A stretch of DNA of 25,945 nucleotides, taken from a virus. Positions 4,102 to 25,018 of this stretch are shown here, piece by piece. Under the pieces are notes generated by a model that worked only from the letters and a program-made list of their open reading frames with translations, was not told where the DNA came from and did no database searches. A program made the position numbers and the translations under genes. The stretch lies in IMG/VR virus record IMGVR_UViG_3300042335_000096, positions 1 through 25,945 of that record; one strand, 5' to 3'. Numbering within the stretch: the stretch's first letter is position 1; each line of letters opens with the position of its first letter.

Positions 4102-4221
4102 TATCTTTTAGGATTCAAAAAAAAATATTTTAGAACTTTTTTTTAAAAAAACTTTTTGCACCCTCTAAAACCATTGATTCTATTGAGTTATTAAAATAAA
4201 AAATATATCAAATTCATGCAC

Positions 4222-9989: not shown

Positions 9990-10402
9990 GCGTCAAATTT
10001 TGAAATTGCACTCAAATTAAAACTTAAACCAACACCACTCAAATAATCTTCATATTTTTCGCTGATAGCATCCCAATTAATATTTGTATCTATCAAATAG
10101 GAATTGCTTTGCTTTCTTAAATTGCTTATCACATCAGCAGCAATACTATGTTGGTCACTTGTTATTTCTGTTTCAAATTCACCCTCCAATCCGCTCTTAT
10201 CTAAAAACCACATTTGAATATTGAACACTTGCTCACGCCCTGCATTTAAAGCACCTGAATTAATAACAAAACAAGCCACCGGGAAAACGGGCTGATTATC
10301 CCAATTTAACCAGTTTGTTGGTGGGTTGAATTTTACCGTTTTTATTAACGGATGCGCCGCCAACTTTGTTTGTATCTCTGTCACTACTTGATTGTAGGTC
10401 AT
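9971..10402 (-). CDS. Neck / tail-completion candidate, 143 residues
   Basis: The protein begins MTYNQVVTEIQTKLAAHPLI and has a KTVKFNPPTNWLNWDNQPVF segment, then beta strands (NIQMWFLDKSG) and a helix (HSIAADVISNLRK). Its size, alpha/beta pattern and place after portal and connector genes resemble tail-terminator or head-tail joining proteins of siphoviruses, which cap the tail tube and bind the connector. Families of this type in Bacteroidota phages are usually left as hypothetical, so the role is from size and context only. Start at 10402; its 5' region overlaps a possible 53-residue ORF. Confidence 0.55.
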   Translation of the reverse strand: MTYNQVVTEIQTKLAAHPLIKTVKFNPPTNWLNWDNQPVFPVACFVINSGALNAGREQVFNIQMWFLDKSGLEGEFETEITSDQHSIAADVISNLRKQSNSYLIDTNINWDAISEKYEDYLSGVGLSFNLSAISKFDACDISL

Positions 10403-10457
10403 GATTAAATTTTTCTTTTACTTTTTTAATAAACTCGGGTTTGTAACCTTTGCTCAT
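10296..10457 (-). CDS. Possible overlapping small ORF, 53 residues, basic
   Basis: An ATG at 10457, one base after the connector stop, opens MSKGYKPEFIKKVKEKFNHD and continues through a polar tail (NKNGKIQPTNKLVKLG). It covers the otherwise untranslated 56-base gap, but two thirds of it overlaps the 143-residue gene in another frame. The N-terminal third looks like a real basic helix; the rest could be chance. It may instead serve to couple translation across the gap. Confidence 0.3.
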   Translation of the reverse strand: MSKGYKPEFIKKVKEKFNHDLQSSSDRDTNKVGGASVNKNGKIQPTNKLVKLG

Positions 10458-10458
10458 A

Positions 10459-11247
10459 TTATTTGTATAAAAACGTGAATAATTCCCCTGCCATTGCAAC
10501 ATCTCCAGTCGGTAAGTAAATATTGCCTCCTAATATTTGAATTTCCTGCGTGTCTGATGTTGTATTGGTAACTATCTTTTTTGTCAATCCACCTCTCGCT
10601 GCTATAATAGTTGTTCTACCTACCAAATCATTTACTAAGAATTGACTCTCACCACCCACCGCAGTATAGTAAACAGTAACTAAATCCGGAACTGAACTTG
10701 AGCTGCTTCTGTATGTCGGGTTAACTGTGTAACCTTCGCCCAAATAAATAGGACATGAATAACTTTTTGTAATCGGAAAAATCACATCAACGCCCAAAGT
10801 CTGATTTAAATACTCATAAAATAAGTTATAATTCTCTTGTAAGTATCTAATCATGCGAGTATTGTAAAATTCCGCCATTGATTTATACTTTTGCTCTAAT
10901 AACTCCAAATCACCTCTTGATGGCGTATTGCTTTCCTCACTTGTCTTTTGTAAAAATCCCTTAGAGAATAATTGATAACCCATAACCATCGGAAGCATTG
11001 ACATTGTATACCATACCAACGTATCGGTGATGTAATTGTCAATTAACCCGATTTCAGCGTTATTAAGATTATCAGCTTCTATGCCAGCTAATAGTCTGTT
11101 GTAAAGCGTAGAGCCAAGTGAAGGCTGAATATAGATATCAGCAGCCACTTTAATCATAGGTCTTAGCTGCTTACCATCAATAGCATTACTGGCTCCTGTC
11201 CTTTCCTTAAAAAGATTTTCGGTTATGAAAAGTATATTTTTACTCAT
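10459..11247 (-). CDS. Head-tail connector-like structural protein (DUF6712 type), 262 residues
   Basis: The N-terminal ~160 residues are helical and match what I know of the DUF6712 family of Bacteroidota phages (MSKNILFITENLFKERTGAS, then IQPSLGSTLYNRL and TDTLVWYTMSMLPM), which sits after the portal and is thought to be an adaptor related to gp6-type connectors. Residues ~180-262 form a separate beta-rich domain (VPDLVTVYYTAVGGES, IQILGGNIYLPTGDV) that may be an extra surface or joining domain. It starts inside the portal stop (TAATG). The adaptor role is inferred from family and position. Confidence 0.7.
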   Translation of the reverse strand: MSKNILFITENLFKERTGASNAIDGKQLRPMIKVAADIYIQPSLGSTLYNRLLAGIEADNLNNAEIGLIDNYITDTLVWYTMSMLPMVMGYQLFSKGFLQKTSEESNTPSRGDLELLEQKYKSMAEFYNTRMIRYLQENYNLFYEYLNQTLGVDVIFPITKSYSCPIYLGEGYTVNPTYRSSSSSVPDLVTVYYTAVGGESQFLVNDLVGRTTIIAARGGLTKKIVTNTTSDTQEIQILGGNIYLPTGDVAMAGELFTFLYK

Positions 11248-13217
11248 TACTTACGTTTTACAAAATTTATTTTCCATTGGTGTCGGCAGTATTCTCTATG
11301 ACTTCCATCTTTTAAAGTTAGCCATCCACCTCTACGATCCCATACAGAATAACCAACACGCTCACTTATTAACTCAATTTCTGAACGTGAATAAAATCTA
11401 TTAAGATCTAATAAACGTCTGCAAAAATCCCTGTTCTTTTCATCTTTTGGACCTTCATAAGAATACCTAATTAAGACTTCTTCCGTTTTAGGACTTTTGC
11501 CCTCTAATTCAGATGGAGCCTTAACAACGTCACGCTCAATTATTTTATCCTGACCTACCTTTATAATAGTAGCCTTTAAAAGTTTTCTTTCAATTAACTT
11601 TTTTAAAGTTTCATCAATAGTCTTAACGTCTGTCTTTAAGGTTTTAGCCAAAACTTCGGGAGTGATTTTTTTATCCTTTCCGATTAAGTCTAAAATGTTA
11701 GCCTCTAATTGATTGATTTTTTCATCTGCAAAATATTCTCTTGCTGATTTGCTTTCGATTATTTCGTAAATATCCCTATTTTCTCCGCATGATGAAAACT
11801 CATTAATCAATCTGTCATCTTCATTCATTGAGAATTTTTGCATTTCATCTTCTGTCAAAGGGTCAGCATCTATACCCAAAAACGTATTCACGTCATCATC
11901 TGTAAAATTAAATCCATTTTTAAGCATTAACGATGCCTGCTCTTTTGTTAGTTTGCCGTTCCCGAACTGCCTAACTATTCTCATTACGTTTTGGTATTGC
12001 CTGCCTGATAAGTTACGGATAGCCTCGTTCATCTGTGCAGGTTGTTCAGTAGGCGCAGTTATTGCTTTTGCACCATCCGCAGTAACTTGATTCGCTTGTA
12101 ATGGCTCACGTCCTAATATCTCACGTATCTCATTTTGCGTTAGGTTAGCACTTATAATAGCTTCGCCAAATTCAAATTTAAGCGGCTCAACTGGTTGAAT
12201 TTTAAACTCACCCGGCTCACCTTTTAAGTTCCTGAATTTAGTAAATACAGATTCTAATTGATTCTGTTGATTAGAAACATAAGTATTATTGAATATTTCG
12301 TATGCATCCCTAATCTCATTTCTCGCTCCTAATTGTCCGCTTTCTTTGATTCCGAAAAGAATTGGTGAAGTAATCTGATGTGCCGTAAACACCTCAGCTT
12401 GTATAAGATTATTCACATTCGTAAAATCTTCCTTAGTCAACATTGACTGCCCTAAATCCTGAATATCAGCACTATTCTCTTTTGACTTATTAAACATTAT
12501 CACAGTACGCTTTCCATCGTGTCCTGTGAACTTTTTTAATAGTTGGCGTTCAACTTCGCCTTTGTGTTCCTCTCCAATAGGATCGCCATTGTTAAGGTTT
12601 ATAAGTTTTGAACCTACGAAACCTTGTTTAGCGTTACCTAAAATGTGCCGAGAAACCTCAATATCTGATTCAATATAATTTAAACCCTGATAGTATGAAG
12701 GCAAAGGATATACATCTGAACTTGGGTTATATTCTTTATAGTAGAATATCTGACTTCCTACCGGGTTATTCACATTGAACGCCTCATAACATCTCGGCTT
12801 TTCCCTAAAATCTTTCCAGTCGTTTTTAACGTAGAATTTAGTCAAATCCTTAGACACCCTTACTTTATGGAACTCTATGTGATAAATCTCTGAAACTTGC
12901 TTTAAACGATTCCAAATGACCTGCAAATAGTATCCTCTGTATAGTTCATCATCCTTTACGCACTTTCTTAAAATATCGTTCCATGTTTCTGCACCATTCG
13001 CTTGACCCGCAACCTCAAAACCTTTACCATAAATGTATGTAGTTTTTCCTTTGACTATTGAACCATGTTTAGGACTTTCATTATAAAGCGAAAGCAAATA
13101 CTCCGGGTAATCATTTTCCGCTCCGAACTCTACATAACCCTTACCTTTCTTTTCTTCAAACTTAGGTTTTTGAGCGGTGTCAAATTGTAAAACTATGTGC
13201 CTATAATTATTTTCCAT
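11247..13217 (-). CDS. Portal protein with C-terminal winged-helix-like and Cys/His domains, 656 residues
   Basis: The first ~370 residues look like a phage portal: AENDYPEYLLSLYNESPKHG near the start, a long core with the ILGNAKQGFVGSKL segment, and the conserved AHQITSPILFGIKESGQLG stretch near 280-300. Portals form the dodecameric ring through which DNA enters and leaves the head. At 656 residues it is longer than usual. Residues ~495-550 (KKITPEVLAKTLKTDVKTID) resemble a winged helix, and 582-656 (RDFCRRLLDLNRFYSRSEIE ... EYCRHQWKINFVKRK; C599, C644, H646) resemble a MuF-like head-morphogenesis tail. It sits after the capsid rather than beside the terminase. Confidence 0.82.
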   Translation of the reverse strand: MENNYRHIVLQFDTAQKPKFEEKKGKGYVEFGAENDYPEYLLSLYNESPKHGSIVKGKTTYIYGKGFEVAGQANGAETWNDILRKCVKDDELYRGYYLQVIWNRLKQVSEIYHIEFHKVRVSKDLTKFYVKNDWKDFREKPRCYEAFNVNNPVGSQIFYYKEYNPSSDVYPLPSYYQGLNYIESDIEVSRHILGNAKQGFVGSKLINLNNGDPIGEEHKGEVERQLLKKFTGHDGKRTVIMFNKSKENSADIQDLGQSMLTKEDFTNVNNLIQAEVFTAHQITSPILFGIKESGQLGARNEIRDAYEIFNNTYVSNQQNQLESVFTKFRNLKGEPGEFKIQPVEPLKFEFGEAIISANLTQNEIREILGREPLQANQVTADGAKAITAPTEQPAQMNEAIRNLSGRQYQNVMRIVRQFGNGKLTKEQASLMLKNGFNFTDDDVNTFLGIDADPLTEDEMQKFSMNEDDRLINEFSSCGENRDIYEIIESKSAREYFADEKINQLEANILDLIGKDKKITPEVLAKTLKTDVKTIDETLKKLIERKLLKATIIKVGQDKIIERDVVKAPSELEGKSPKTEEVLIRYSYEGPKDEKNRDFCRRLLDLNRFYSRSEIELISERVGYSVWDRRGGWLTLKDGSHREYCRHQWKINFVKRK

Positions 13218-16839: not shown

Positions 16840-18993
16840 TTAATTTATACGTGCTGCTCTGTTTATGCGTTTTATTCTTTCCTGACTTCCGCTTACATCA
16901 GATTCTAAAACAAATGCCCTGCTTGTTGCAGATGCTAACTGATTAACTTGTCCTTGATTTAATAATGTGCTTTGTGTTTGTGGTGTTAATGGAGCGTTGA
17001 TTTGTGGCAAAGATGGAGGAGTTCCACCACCTCCACCGCCTCCCGGAACTTTAGTCGCTAATATTGATTTAACTGATTTAATACCACTCGCAACAATAGC
17101 CGCCACATTTACAATTTTACTGATAGTTGCAACAGGTTCGGGTAAAGCTGTTTTTGCTCTTAATACTTCGGTGGCACCTAACCATGTGTTAATAGTAGCC
17201 TGTGCAACTGCTAATCCTTTACCTACCGCAGTTTCCTTTCCTATAATTTCAGAAAGCTGCCCCATTGCATCTCCTATGGCTTTTGTAGTAGCAATTTTTT
17301 GAGCTGCCTCATCTTGAGCTATTTTTATTCTTGCATCTGCATTTTGTTTTTCGTATTCTGTTTTTGCCGCTTCGCTTTCAAATACTATTGTATTTATTGC
17401 ATCTTCTCTTTCTTTTACGGCTTGCAATCTTTCATCAAAAGTTAAATCCTGATTGTTTGCTCTTTGCAAATCCAATGCCGCCTCGTCTGTTAATTGTTTT
17501 TGTTTTTTAGCCTTATCTTCTTCAAGTTGTTTATCAGCTTTGTCTTTATCTTCAGCAGCAAATTTATCTTTCATTTGCTGAAGATTGATCATGTATTGTC
17601 TTTCTAATAAGGCTATTGATTCAGCCTTTTCGCTTGCAGTTGCCTTACCATTTTCAATGTCTTTTTTTGCAGCCTCTAAATCCATTTCCAATTTAACCTC
17701 TGCACGTTTCCTTTCATTTGTTATTAACGAAAGCGTAATATCATCTTGTAATTTCTTTTGTAATTCATTCTGCGCAGCATTTGCATCTTTTGTCTGTTGT
17801 TTTTCTCTTTCAATTTCTGCACTTCTATCTGTCTGCCTTTTTTTTGCAGCATCATCAGATTTCTTTCCAGCGTCTTTATTTGATTTCTCTAAACTTTTAT
17901 TTTTTTCTATTTGAAAATCAGTAGCAATATTTGCAGACTTACTTAAATTTTCAATTTCTTCGAGATTTTTTTTAGCTTGCTCTTGTAGGCTATTGCTTAT
18001 TTGAGTATTGCTTTTTTGTATATCTAAAACATTTTTATCGACTTCACCTTTTAGTTTAGCCGTATTCGCACCGGTTATAAATATTTTATCAAGGTTTTCA
18101 ATATCCTTTTTTGTTTGTTCACCTCTTGCAGCCTCTTCAGCACTTTTTGCAGCATACTCAGCAGACTTAGCAAATAAAGCATTTGCCTGCGCTTTTAATC
18201 CTTGTATTTTAATGTACGTTTGAGCCTTATCAGTAAATAATTTCTCAGCTTTATTTAAATCATTTGTTTTGCCAAATGAATCTCCTAATGTATCGTTATA
18301 AGTTTTTAGCGCTTGCTCTTTTGTTATAACTCCTTTTTTGGCTAATTCAAATGCATTACTTACCTTGTTTGTTTCTGCAATGGCATTTTTTGTACCATCT
18401 GTATAAGCCTCTAAACTTTTATTTAATTCATCTTGTGCAACTTTTGCAGCACTTGCCTTACCAAAAAGATCATCCCATTTTGAAATCAATAACGCAACCG
18501 CAGCAATCAATAAACCAATTCCAGTAGCAAGCGTAGCGGCGCTCATTTTTCTGAATGTGTCCATAACAACTACACCCAACTGTTTGAATGAATCCTTTGC
18601 CGCAGTAATCGCATTCAATCCCTGAGTTAATGCCATTGCCCCTTGTACCTTAGTAAGTACTTTTTGCAAGTCTTCAGACTCTGCACCAAATAAAGCCTGA
18701 GCGCCTTGTAAGGCAGCAAACCCACCAACAACACCCTGCAATGCAGAGCCAAATGCTTGAAATTTTGCATCAGGATTAAACGCATCCGTTAATGACTTAG
18801 CATCTCCTATTCTATCTTTTAATTCAGCGGCTTTCTTTGCAGCCTCAGCAGCTTGGGTGGATGTTTCCCCAAATTTCTCAGACATTCTTACAACCTCAGC
18901 CTGTGCCTCTCTTAATTGCTGTTTAATGCTTTTAACCGAATTACTCGCCTGACTTCCGTCTGCCGTTAATTTTAATGCTACTTCTGTTGCCAT
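16840..18993 (-). CDS. Tail tape-measure protein, 717 residues
   Basis: The sequence is typical of tape-measure proteins: Ala/Lys/Gln-rich helices throughout, an N-terminal coiled region (KQQLREAQAEVVRMSEKFGE), a hydrophobic membrane-active region near residues 150-172 (TLATGIGLLIAAVALLISKW), long coiled coils around 300-560 (KKRQTDRSAEIEREKQQTKD), another hydrophobic segment, and a Gly/Pro stretch (VPGGGGGGGTPPSLP) before the C terminus. By the usual ~0.15 nm per residue it would set a tail of roughly 105-110 nm. It follows the tail-tip genes rather than preceding them, which is unusual. It starts one base after the upstream stop. Confidence 0.87.
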   Translation of the reverse strand: MATEVALKLTADGSQASNSVKSIKQQLREAQAEVVRMSEKFGETSTQAAEAAKKAAELKDRIGDAKSLTDAFNPDAKFQAFGSALQGVVGGFAALQGAQALFGAESEDLQKVLTKVQGAMALTQGLNAITAAKDSFKQLGVVVMDTFRKMSAATLATGIGLLIAAVALLISKWDDLFGKASAAKVAQDELNKSLEAYTDGTKNAIAETNKVSNAFELAKKGVITKEQALKTYNDTLGDSFGKTNDLNKAEKLFTDKAQTYIKIQGLKAQANALFAKSAEYAAKSAEEAARGEQTKKDIENLDKIFITGANTAKLKGEVDKNVLDIQKSNTQISNSLQEQAKKNLEEIENLSKSANIATDFQIEKNKSLEKSNKDAGKKSDDAAKKRQTDRSAEIEREKQQTKDANAAQNELQKKLQDDITLSLITNERKRAEVKLEMDLEAAKKDIENGKATASEKAESIALLERQYMINLQQMKDKFAAEDKDKADKQLEEDKAKKQKQLTDEAALDLQRANNQDLTFDERLQAVKEREDAINTIVFESEAAKTEYEKQNADARIKIAQDEAAQKIATTKAIGDAMGQLSEIIGKETAVGKGLAVAQATINTWLGATEVLRAKTALPEPVATISKIVNVAAIVASGIKSVKSILATKVPGGGGGGGTPPSLPQINAPLTPQTQSTLLNQGQVNQLASATSRAFVLESDVSGSQERIKRINRAARIN

Positions 18994-22474: not shown

Positions 22475-23077
22475 TTATTTACTTGAAAATGTTACTGTTA
22501 TATCTTTACCAAACGCCTCTGCCATAACCTCACCAATATCTCCGAATACTTCTTTTACCGCATCATCAAACCACCTTTTCGCTCTTATACCTTTTTTCTT
22601 TATTCCGAATATTGCATTTTTAACCTGAAAATCAATCAATGCTTTCCCACCTCTGCGACTAAATTTTTTTTCCAATTCTTTGTATGCCGGCGAAAATGTT
22701 GTCACTTTCTTTTGTCCACTTCTAACCCACTCCTCAACTGACTTTGCACCTTCGGCATTCATGCCCTTTGTTTTAAACTGATAAGGACTATTTGGAGCCT
22801 TACTTGAATCAGCCCATCCCTTAACACCCTTATTCGTATAGTCGTAATAATCAGCCATTTTTATTGTCATGGTGATCTTACTACCTTGCTTTTCAATTAT
22901 CGGTTGACTAATAGAATCTTCCAAAGCACCGCTTGCAGTTACTCCACGTTGATTTAATAGTTCAATACACTTAACCCTGAAATCCCTTCCCAGTTTTTCT
23001 ATTAAATTTTCAGCTTCAACCGGTACGAACTCTTTACTTCCTATATCCTCCAATAATACGTTTTTGTTGCTCGGCAT
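22475..23077 (-). CDS. HK97 gp10-like protein, 200 residues
   Basis: Features similar to the HK97 gp10 / neck family: an N-terminal helix (LIEKLGRDFRVKCIELLNQR), the RGVTASGALEDSI segment, a Tyr-rich DYYDYTNKGVKGW strand and the basic C-terminal helix (IKKKGIRAKRWFDDAVKEVF). Such proteins join tail and head or help tail completion. Its ATG at 23077 lies 44 bases inside the -1 frame extension of the tail chaperone. Placement in the tail rather than neck module is unusual for gp10 proteins, so a Bacteroidota-specific tail role remains possible. Confidence 0.55.
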   Translation of the reverse strand: MPSNKNVLLEDIGSKEFVPVEAENLIEKLGRDFRVKCIELLNQRGVTASGALEDSISQPIIEKQGSKITMTIKMADYYDYTNKGVKGWADSSKAPNSPYQFKTKGMNAEGAKSVEEWVRSGQKKVTTFSPAYKELEKKFSRRGGKALIDFQVKNAIFGIKKKGIRAKRWFDDAVKEVFGDIGEVMAEAFGKDITVTFSSK

Positions 23078-23309
23078 CTAATTTTCTTTTTACTTTTAAG
23101 TAAGTTAAATCATTTAAAAACTGTAAAACAGGCATCGCCCAAACGCTATCTAAACTGATATTTTCAAATTCTGATACCATTTTGGCTGAATAGATCCAAC
23201 CATAGTTTCTGTCAAATTCTGAACTATCTGATTCGCCTCCTCTTTCTTCTCCTTCGGTAATTCCAAAGAGTGCAGTAAAGTTTTTATTGACTGCGTGAAA
23301 AGAGCGCAA
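23034..23309 (-). CDS. C-terminal extension of the tail assembly chaperone, read by -1 frameshift
   Basis: This -1 frame has 91 codons after the slippery run and no convincing start of its own (only a TTG at the slip point). The frame is open from about 18 bases before the T-run. It encodes FGITEGEERGGESDSSEFDR followed by NYGWIYSAKMVSEFENISLD and WAMPVLQFLNDLTYLKVK; the pattern of aromatic helix, 'WxMPVLQFLNDLTYLK' and basic tail is typical of the C-terminal (T) part of tail chaperones. A -1 slip on the T9 run would join it to residue 162 of the upstream frame, giving a 253-residue fusion comparable to lambda gpGT. Both product and mechanism are inferred from sequence. Confidence 0.7.
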   Translation of the reverse strand: MRSFHAVNKNFTALFGITEGEERGGESDSSEFDRNYGWIYSAKMVSEFENISLDSVWAMPVLQFLNDLTYLKVKRKLDAEQQKRIIGGYRK

Positions 23310-23794
23310 AAAAAAACAGAGGCATGGTACGCTATATTAAAGTCAAGATGTAGCATATCTTCAGCTATTTGCTCATGATCCGTTGCGTCATATTCTTTCA
23401 TTTTAAATCCTTTCCATGTCAGCTTCATAGGATTTGCCATCGATGCCAATATCTTATGCATGTTGCCGATTATGTCATTTGAGAACGTGGCAACCTCTAC
23501 ATATCTTCCGGCATTCATTGGCTTTTTGGTTATCTCGTAGTTAAGAAAATACCACCTGCCATTAACCTTAATTATTTGTTTTGGATTGCCCTTAGTTAAT
23601 TCTTTGCTGAACAAATCAAAAGACTTATTGATATGATTGCAAACCTTATTGAATTTTTTAACATTCATTGTTTCAACTTCGAACTGGCTCTTATCCAATA
23701 GGGTTTGGACTAATAGTATTGATTTATCTAATTCGTCCATCTCCATTTGACTGATTGCATACAGTTGCTGAAATTTTAAAATGGTAATCTTCAT
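23150..23794 (-). CDS. Tail assembly chaperone (G-like product), 214 residues
   Basis: The protein begins MKITILKFQQLYAISQMEMD and contains LLVQTLLDKSQFEVETMNVK and KKFNKVCNHINKSFD, then GRYVEVATFSNDIIGNMHKI. This resembles phage tail chaperones and T4 gp26-like proteins that coat the tape measure before tube assembly. Translation without slipping ends at 23150; a slip after F162 gives the longer fusion. It lies immediately after the large terminase with a 63-base AT-rich gap, and starts the tail module. The 52-residue zero-frame tail (KEKKEEANQIVQNLTETM) looks less conserved in style than the -1 tail. Confidence 0.65.
   Translation of the reverse strand: MKITILKFQQLYAISQMEMDELDKSILLVQTLLDKSQFEVETMNVKKFNKVCNHINKSFDLFSKELTKGNPKQIIKVNGRWYFLNYEITKKPMNAGRYVEVATFSNDIIGNMHKILASMANPMKLTWKGFKMKEYDATDHEQIAEDMLHLDFNIAYHASVFFCALFTQSIKTLLHSLELPKEKKEEANQIVQNLTETMVGSIQPKWYQNLKISV
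23308..23316 (-). other. Nine-T slippery sequence for -1 frameshifting
   Basis: On the minus strand the zero frame reads GTT-TTT-TTT-TGC, which contains T-TTT-TTT, an ideal X-XXY-YYZ heptamer for tandem -1 slippage. After the slip, reading continues TTG-CGC-TCT into the 91-codon extension. It lies at the start of the 160-base overlap of the two frames. Confidence 0.7.
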
Positions 23795-23807
23795 ACTATA
23801 ATATGTG
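23793..23807 (-). promoter_or_regulatory. Shared CACATATTATAGTAT element before the tail chaperone
   Basis: Reads CACATATTATAGTAT on the minus strand and ends within the ATG of the chaperone gene. One mismatch from 15778-15792. Because it touches the start codon, a promoter here would give a leaderless message; a translation or activator role is also possible. Confidence 0.4.
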
Positions 23808-23857
23808 GTTTTTAGTGATGTCGGTTTGTGAGAAAGTAAAAAAACTGTAAAAAAAGT

Positions 23858-25018
23858 TTAAATAAATCGGTAAACCCCCGATGTTTTATGTTCGTTTCTA
23901 CATTTTACGGCAAGTGCTAAGGCGTTCACGCAGTCATCATGATACCCGGAAGGCGCATTGTATCTCACCCCTGTTGATGTATAAACATACTCAAAGGTTT
24001 CTAATTCGTTGACTATCGTACCATCGGGAAAGAATATCTGTCTGTTTTGAATTTCTGATGCAAGCAATTCCATTAACTGCTGCTTAGATTGGCTTGTGTA
24101 TTTAAACCCATGCATACGCTGAAATGACCTTTGTAGATCTTCGGTAATGGCATCACCAACCCCGGTACTATCTATCATTACAGGTCTGCTTTTATCAATG
24201 GTTAGTATTTCATTCTTTGTCTGCATCCAATCTTTCTGAAAGCGATTATAATACGATACCTGACCGTTTATGTCAAGTCCGACTATGACGGTCCAGTCAA
24301 ATGACTTCGCTAAATCAATCCCATAGTACATCGGTTGTAAAGTAGATATTGGGCGTATGCATTCTTTGATATGCTGACTGCCGAAAGGATTAGCAGCGTT
24401 TTCCATTGGATTCGCCATGTACTCCTGCTCAAAGACCGCTTCGGGTAATTGTCGGCGTGCATCATCTATCTCATTAGGATCAATGTATGGATTATCGTAT
24501 GTTGTGAATTTAAACGATTCCCAGTCTGTTTCACGTGAAATGCCTTTATTAAAAATCTTATAAAAGAAATTTTTACCTTTTGGAGTTGAAAGGAATAAAG
24601 CTCTACCTTGATAATCTGTTAAGGTAGGTCTGATTGAATTTAGCCACCCATCTTCAAGATTAGGAATGAATGACGCCTCATCTATTACGACAAGGTGAAA
24701 TTTGCGACCTCTTAAATTATCTAATCGTTCACCGGTGAAAAACTCAACGCTGCCTTCGTTTGGAAATCTTATTATTAAATCAGACTTGTTATTCTCGAAT
24801 GGAACTGATAAAATTAGTTTCTCAAAGAATGTTTTGGCTAATTTGTATGTAGGAGTAATATAGGCAACGGCTTTGCCTAACATGGCATTTTTAATAATTT
24901 CAATTTGACTTACTTCAGACTTTCCAAATCTACGGCCACAGCATACGACTCTAAACCTTGCCTGACTGTCAAGGATTCTTTTTTGGTTAATGTGTGGTTT
25001 AGATAGTTCAATTCTCAT
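23858..25018 (-). CDS. terL: Terminase large subunit, 386 residues
   Basis: Motor domain: Walker A CGRRFGKS (residues 27-34), Walker B LVVIDEA with D113/E114, and coupling motif LSTPKG (143-148). Nuclease domain: D235 in YGIDLAKSFDWT, D283 in MIDSTGVGD and D362 in GYHDDCVNALALA, the usual three-acidic-residue RNase H-like site. The enzyme cuts concatemeric phage DNA and pumps it into the prohead through the portal using ATP. An in-frame TAA stands directly before the ATG at 25018, fixing the start. Length is normal to short. No frameshift or missing residue is seen. Confidence 0.95.
   Translation of the reverse strand: MRIELSKPHINQKRILDSQARFRVVCCGRRFGKSEVSQIEIIKNAMLGKAVAYITPTYKLAKTFFEKLILSVPFENNKSDLIIRFPNEGSVEFFTGERLDNLRGRKFHLVVIDEASFIPNLEDGWLNSIRPTLTDYQGRALFLSTPKGKNFFYKIFNKGISRETDWESFKFTTYDNPYIDPNEIDDARRQLPEAVFEQEYMANPMENAANPFGSQHIKECIRPISTLQPMYYGIDLAKSFDWTVIVGLDINGQVSYYNRFQKDWMQTKNEILTIDKSRPVMIDSTGVGDAITEDLQRSFQRMHGFKYTSQSKQQLMELLASEIQNRQIFFPDGTIVNELETFEYVYTSTGVRYNAPSGYHDDCVNALALAVKCRNEHKTSGVYRFI

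Follow-up and report, generated by a model that had tools for sequence, protein, structure and literature searches.

Making a short product and a longer −1 fusion from one gene is a strategy already known from phages lambda and P2. The zero-frame tail of lambda G/GT is short. In P2, the gene for gpE and the gpE+E' fusion (Phage_TAC_7, PF10109) lies between the tail tube and the tape measure, and its zero frame stops about 20 nt past a T_TTT_TTG slip. Judging by the title of a 2022 paper by Vladimirov, T4-like phages reportedly make their tail assembly chaperones from separate genes. Nine identical A or T at a frame junction are also found in transcriptional realignment, as in IS elements and Thermus dnaX (PMC1088944).

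We analyzed a comparable locus in a 25,945-nt stretch of viral DNA (IMG/VR record IMGVR_UViG_3300042335_000096, positions 1 to 25,945), hereafter the window, in which the first-pass annotation had proposed a programmed −1 frameshift in a tail assembly chaperone. The features concerned are the following.

23858..25018, minus strand: terminase large subunit (TerL), upstream neighbor (phrog_2, E=1.1e-49)
23150..23794, minus strand: zero-frame ORF for the short G-like product, 214 aa (ORF list; kept in 98 unique sites; AlphaFold model)
23308..23316, minus strand: T9 run in the phase GTT TTT TTT TGC (sequence and relatives)
23309..23315, minus strand: candidate slippery heptamer T_TTT_TTT (zero-frame codons ..T TTT TTT; phase identical in all relatives)
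23150..23309, minus strand: dual-coding overlap, 160 nt, with signs of selection on both frames (substitution and open-frame statistics)
23037..23309, minus strand: −1-frame coding part, 91 codons, predicted T-like tail of the 253-aa fusion (conserved profile A3; helical model)
23034-23036, minus strand: stop codon of the −1 frame
22475..23077, minus strand: downstream neighbor, 200 aa, HK97-gp10-like by appearance only (only match phrog_29822, unknown function, 2.6e-4); it begins before the −1 frame has ended
16840..18993, minus strand: probable tape measure protein of 717 aa, encoded three genes downstream (match to phrog_3336, tail length tape measure, 1.6e-4)

The overlap begins at the nine Ts (site at 23317-23306, minus strand), where a −1 slip would join residue 162 to a 91-residue tail. 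The only start listed for the −1 frame is a TTG that is part of the slip itself. Our ORF analysis returned the coordinates and counts of the first-pass annotation unchanged (the 214-aa frame, 160 nt, residue 162, 91 and 253), together with its pure T run carrying T-TTT-TTT at the overlap start, its lack of a proper −1 start and its three genes between the site and the tape measure region.

The locus shares with lambda gpG/gpGT the two-product −1 logic (PMC5009743): two overlapping frames are −1-related, the second has no start of its own, an in-phase X_XXZ_ZZN heptamer is conserved, and both frames bear signs of selection. However, its slip sequence is different, no sequence match to lambda gpG or gpGT was found, and the gene lies beside TerL and not at the typical lambda-type site just before the tape measure. 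With P2 gpE it has in common the short product plus −1 fusion, a close slip sequence, a short motif in the N-terminal part and sub-threshold family matches, but in the window the zero frame continues for 52 selected codons past the slip, and the position beside TerL differs from that in P2. As in transcriptional realignment, the junction also carries nine or more A or T in a row, although here the run contains a proper ribosomal heptamer too.

To compare relatives, 80 loci were taken from a TerL-anchored scan and 80 from a scan with a fusion profile, with contigs partly shared; 13 of the TerL-anchored loci show no frame pair, their contigs stopping before or within the region. After duplicate removal, 98 complete sites were left, falling into 31 clusters below 70% identity and 14 below 50%. 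Exactly nine Ts were found in 97 of them and ten in the remaining one, with the same frame relation throughout. An independent contig with 96% protein identity to the window has T9 as well, and the run is kept in lineages at about 20–26% identity to the window protein (L084/L163, a single contig, and L164–L167). Across the 98 sites, the codon 5′ of the two TTT is GTT, CTT or ATT and the codon 3′ always begins with T; the heptamer stays in zero-frame phase at the junction in all relatives. In the T10 relative (L143), TTC follows the two TTT and the frame relation is unaltered, which looks like an ordinary substitution.

The first-pass annotation had suggested comparing homologous loci, and the T run and both frames proved conserved over the 98 unique sites. 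It had also held that a frameshift would be refuted by a true count of ten or seven Ts or by homologues whose second frame has its own start and no slippery run. Neither condition refuted it: the sole T10 relative has the same frame relation, and the only lineage with no slip carries a single-frame fusion plus a short paralogue.

Within the overlap, substitution rates are level over the three codon positions (0.166, 0.130 and 0.158); in the non-overlapping parts third positions are fastest (0.347 upstream and 0.263 in the −1-only part). Among sequence pairs 70–97% identical, four-fold sites inside the overlap differ at 0.10 (−1 frame) and 0.11 (zero frame), compared with 0.28 and 0.38 outside. 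Given the zero-frame protein, the chance of an open −1 frame through the overlap has a mean P of 0.016 per locus, and the chance of a zero frame open equally far, given the −1 protein, a mean P of 0.15. Conservation of the −1 frame runs from the slip site across the overlap, and TTC, which makes up 26% of the upstream Phe codons, is used in 0 at the slip. By these patterns, both frames are under protein-level selection.

The lineage with no slip site (L168–L173) encodes the G and T parts in a single frame, as a 241-aa protein. In 4/4 checked members, a 181-to-191-aa G-like gene lacking the T part precedes this G+T gene, the tandem pairs lying at these positions.

L168 3481-4723: short G-like gene followed by single-frame G+T gene
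L169 3478-4723: the same tandem arrangement
L171 3481-4726: the same tandem arrangement
L173 from about 1976: the same tandem arrangement

The short-protein profile matches both genes and the T profile matches the long one, most of these matches being weak, and family-level hhalign gives only 28%. The tandem genes of L169 are paralogues by sequence (E=5e-8). In this lineage a duplicated gene apparently stands in for the frame switch, and both products appear to matter, because the G-like and G+T forms are supplied from two genes. This use of one gene for the short form and another for the long form is like that of the T4-like phages as far as the title mentioned above conveys it.

Searches of isolate phages by sequence gave 0 matches for the fusions of the window and of L084/L163, for a relative at mid divergence and for a single-frame homologue, and the isolate relative was found only through predicted structure. 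The zero-frame and −1-frame proteins were folded as separate models: the 214-aa short protein gave a pLDDT of 82.9 and a pTM of 0.78, and the −1-encoded part is helical with a pLDDT of 74.5. The short-protein model matches 34 predicted viral structures at E <= 0.001, including I6R9M9 of the cultivated Nonlabens phage P12024S (E=1.3e-6). In P12024S, CTT TTT TTT TAT stands directly after TerL; the two frames overlap by 84 nt, and the fusion has 231 aa. Profile comparison of this fusion with the window family gives a probability of 95%. P12024L has the same T9. The switches lie at 23136-23830 of JQ823122 (L176) and 23946-24640 of JQ823123 (L178).

Family, T9 phase and position right after TerL are thus common to the window and both isolates, which differ from it in the shorter overlap, in an ATG over the zero-frame stop and in being annotated as two hypothetical proteins (genes 38 and 39 in P12024S, 40/41 in P12024L). 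PHROGs likewise stores the two halves as distinct families of unknown function, 32199 and 38404. The gene models of the two cultivated phages would be corrected accordingly, with the two hypothetical genes joined; for the P12024S fusion, the predicted tryptic junction peptide is MLEAPLIAYSSCILFFLSFR. We infer the host group of the window from P12024S and from a head-protein match to P12024S/L. A scan of GTDB genomes with the fusion profile gave no match, so no prophage form was found.

Judged by this conservation, the frame switch is real, because roughly a hundred related phages, two of them cultured, have retained it. The comparisons strongly support a programmed −1 frame change that joins the two frames. 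This part of the first-pass proposal is upheld by the conservation, the dual coding and the single-frame fusions; its ribosomal step is less secure, as transcriptional slippage on T9 could produce the same change.

The reading that we consider probable is that a ribosomal slip at T9 yields a G-like protein and a T-like fusion that act as tail chaperones. Most ribosomes would read the zero frame to give the 214-aa G-like protein, and a minority would move one base back at T9, presumably by tandem slippage on T_TTT_TTT, to give the 253-aa fusion of the first 162 residues and the 91-residue helical T-like domain. By analogy with lambda G/GT and P2 E/E', the two products in a set ratio would chaperone tail assembly, the shared part binding the tape measure and the T-like part recruiting tail-tube subunits. 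No downstream RNA stimulator is conserved among the relatives. This is no problem for a ribosomal slip, because in E. coli most X_XXZ_ZZN heptamers exceed background shifting with no stimulator needed (PMC4066793) and lambda needs a product ratio of only about 30:1, though U_UUU_UUU is weaker than A_AAA_AAG in ribosomal slippage in E. coli (PMC5009743). An apparent upstream hairpin signal disappeared against codon-preserving shuffles and gave no consensus fold.

What weighs against a ribosomal slip is that nine Ts are conserved although seven would be enough for the heptamer, a length that fits transcriptional slippage too. RNA polymerase could slip on T9 to give U8, U9 and U10 transcripts, of which U10 would read into the fusion and lead to the same two products. 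Because the nine Ts are invariant and no RNA stimulator is conserved downstream, this is a serious rival, with a real but smaller chance of being right. Very distant relatives have nine Ts and never seven or eight, and A/T runs of nine are avoided in many bacterial genomes, owing to transcriptional slippage (PMC1088944). In addition, T8 and T9 have zero further occurrences in 229 kb of flanking sense sequence, where the neighboring genes tolerate T7 in slip phase about six times, albeit in small numbers. However, a proper −1 ribosomal heptamer is in phase every time, no upstream hairpin of the kind that stimulates such slippage in some cases is conserved, and the outer two Ts are partly due to protein needs, the −1 residue being Leu or Phe and Leu occurring in the no-slip relatives too. 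We moderately prefer the ribosome over RNA polymerase, the DNA sequence fitting both. The further idea that polymerase slippage on T9 sets the ratio of short to long chaperone in the group related to the Nonlabens phages, with the duplicated gene doing so in the sister lineage, is offered as a tentative and rather doubtful one.

Tail assembly chaperone is the likely function and the best reading. The first-pass assignment is favored by weak matches and by context, but a formal assignment to Phage_TAC_7 (PF10109) is not made: the best score is 18.1 bits, in the relative L168, below the curated 25-bit cut-off, and the window gives no match. Weak Phage_TAC_7 matches occur in 12 of 56 members (best E 0.0029), and sub-threshold ones to the "tail protein" phrog_166 in 28/56 (best 4e-4) and to the "tail assembly chaperone" phrog_18582 in 2/56; the members are interrelated, making these counts non-independent, and chance families appear in the same match lists. 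With hhalign, nine gpE-type proteins share only a short motif, and P2 gpE itself gives a probability of 18% over 24 columns. Searches of PDB folds and of Rfam returned no match. The score below the family cut-off, the missing PDB fold match and the distance of the gene from the tape measure count against a chaperone role.

The frame switch could also serve a different assembly protein with two forms, such as one of the head-tail connection. The gene adjoins TerL, and sub-threshold chaperone matches with no PDB fold match would suit such a protein. Yet the weak chaperone and tail-family matches recur in the same region, no other chaperone candidate is seen in the window, and the G/GT logic fits the short and long forms, making a non-chaperone unlikely.

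Much less credible still are separate genes, with re-initiation or an independent start accounting for translation of the −1 frame. In P12024S the ATG over the zero-frame stop is the annotated start of gene 39, but in most relatives the first −1 ATG falls within the conserved domain, the conserved stretch of the −1 frame reaches from the slip through the overlap, and single-frame fusions exist, so an independent start was rejected for most relatives. A homopolymer sequencing or assembly error, or a decayed gene, is favored only by the prior expectation that homopolymers are error-prone and is refuted, because some 100 independent contigs, along with two cultivated isolates, carry T9 and both frames are under selection.

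We found no description of the T9 switch in the open-access literature. What is new at this locus is the phage group, together with an invariant T9, a position beside TerL, a sister lineage with a duplicated gene and a zero-frame tail that is long and under selection (52 codons in the window and about 25–85 in relatives). A phage group that has seen few experiments thereby gains a deeply conserved, unannotated frame switch. T9 in very distant lineages, one T10 and tandem genes with no slip form a natural series in which to study how frame switch and gene duplication replace each other, and the invariant T9 makes the choice between ribosome and RNA polymerase directly testable.

Some further observations were made at other loci. 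Flavobacterium phage 6H has a weak fold match to the short protein (7e-3; L177, about 10230-10927, minus strand) and no T9 at its site, and was set aside as evidence; a T-like reading frame follows there in another frame, and since T9 is missing the phage may use another arrangement. The sole other A9/T9 run of the window (4117-4125) lies between listed minus-strand ORFs and inside none. The window ORF at 11247-13217 (minus strand) has a portal match over its first 344 of 656 residues, followed by a long C-terminal extension.
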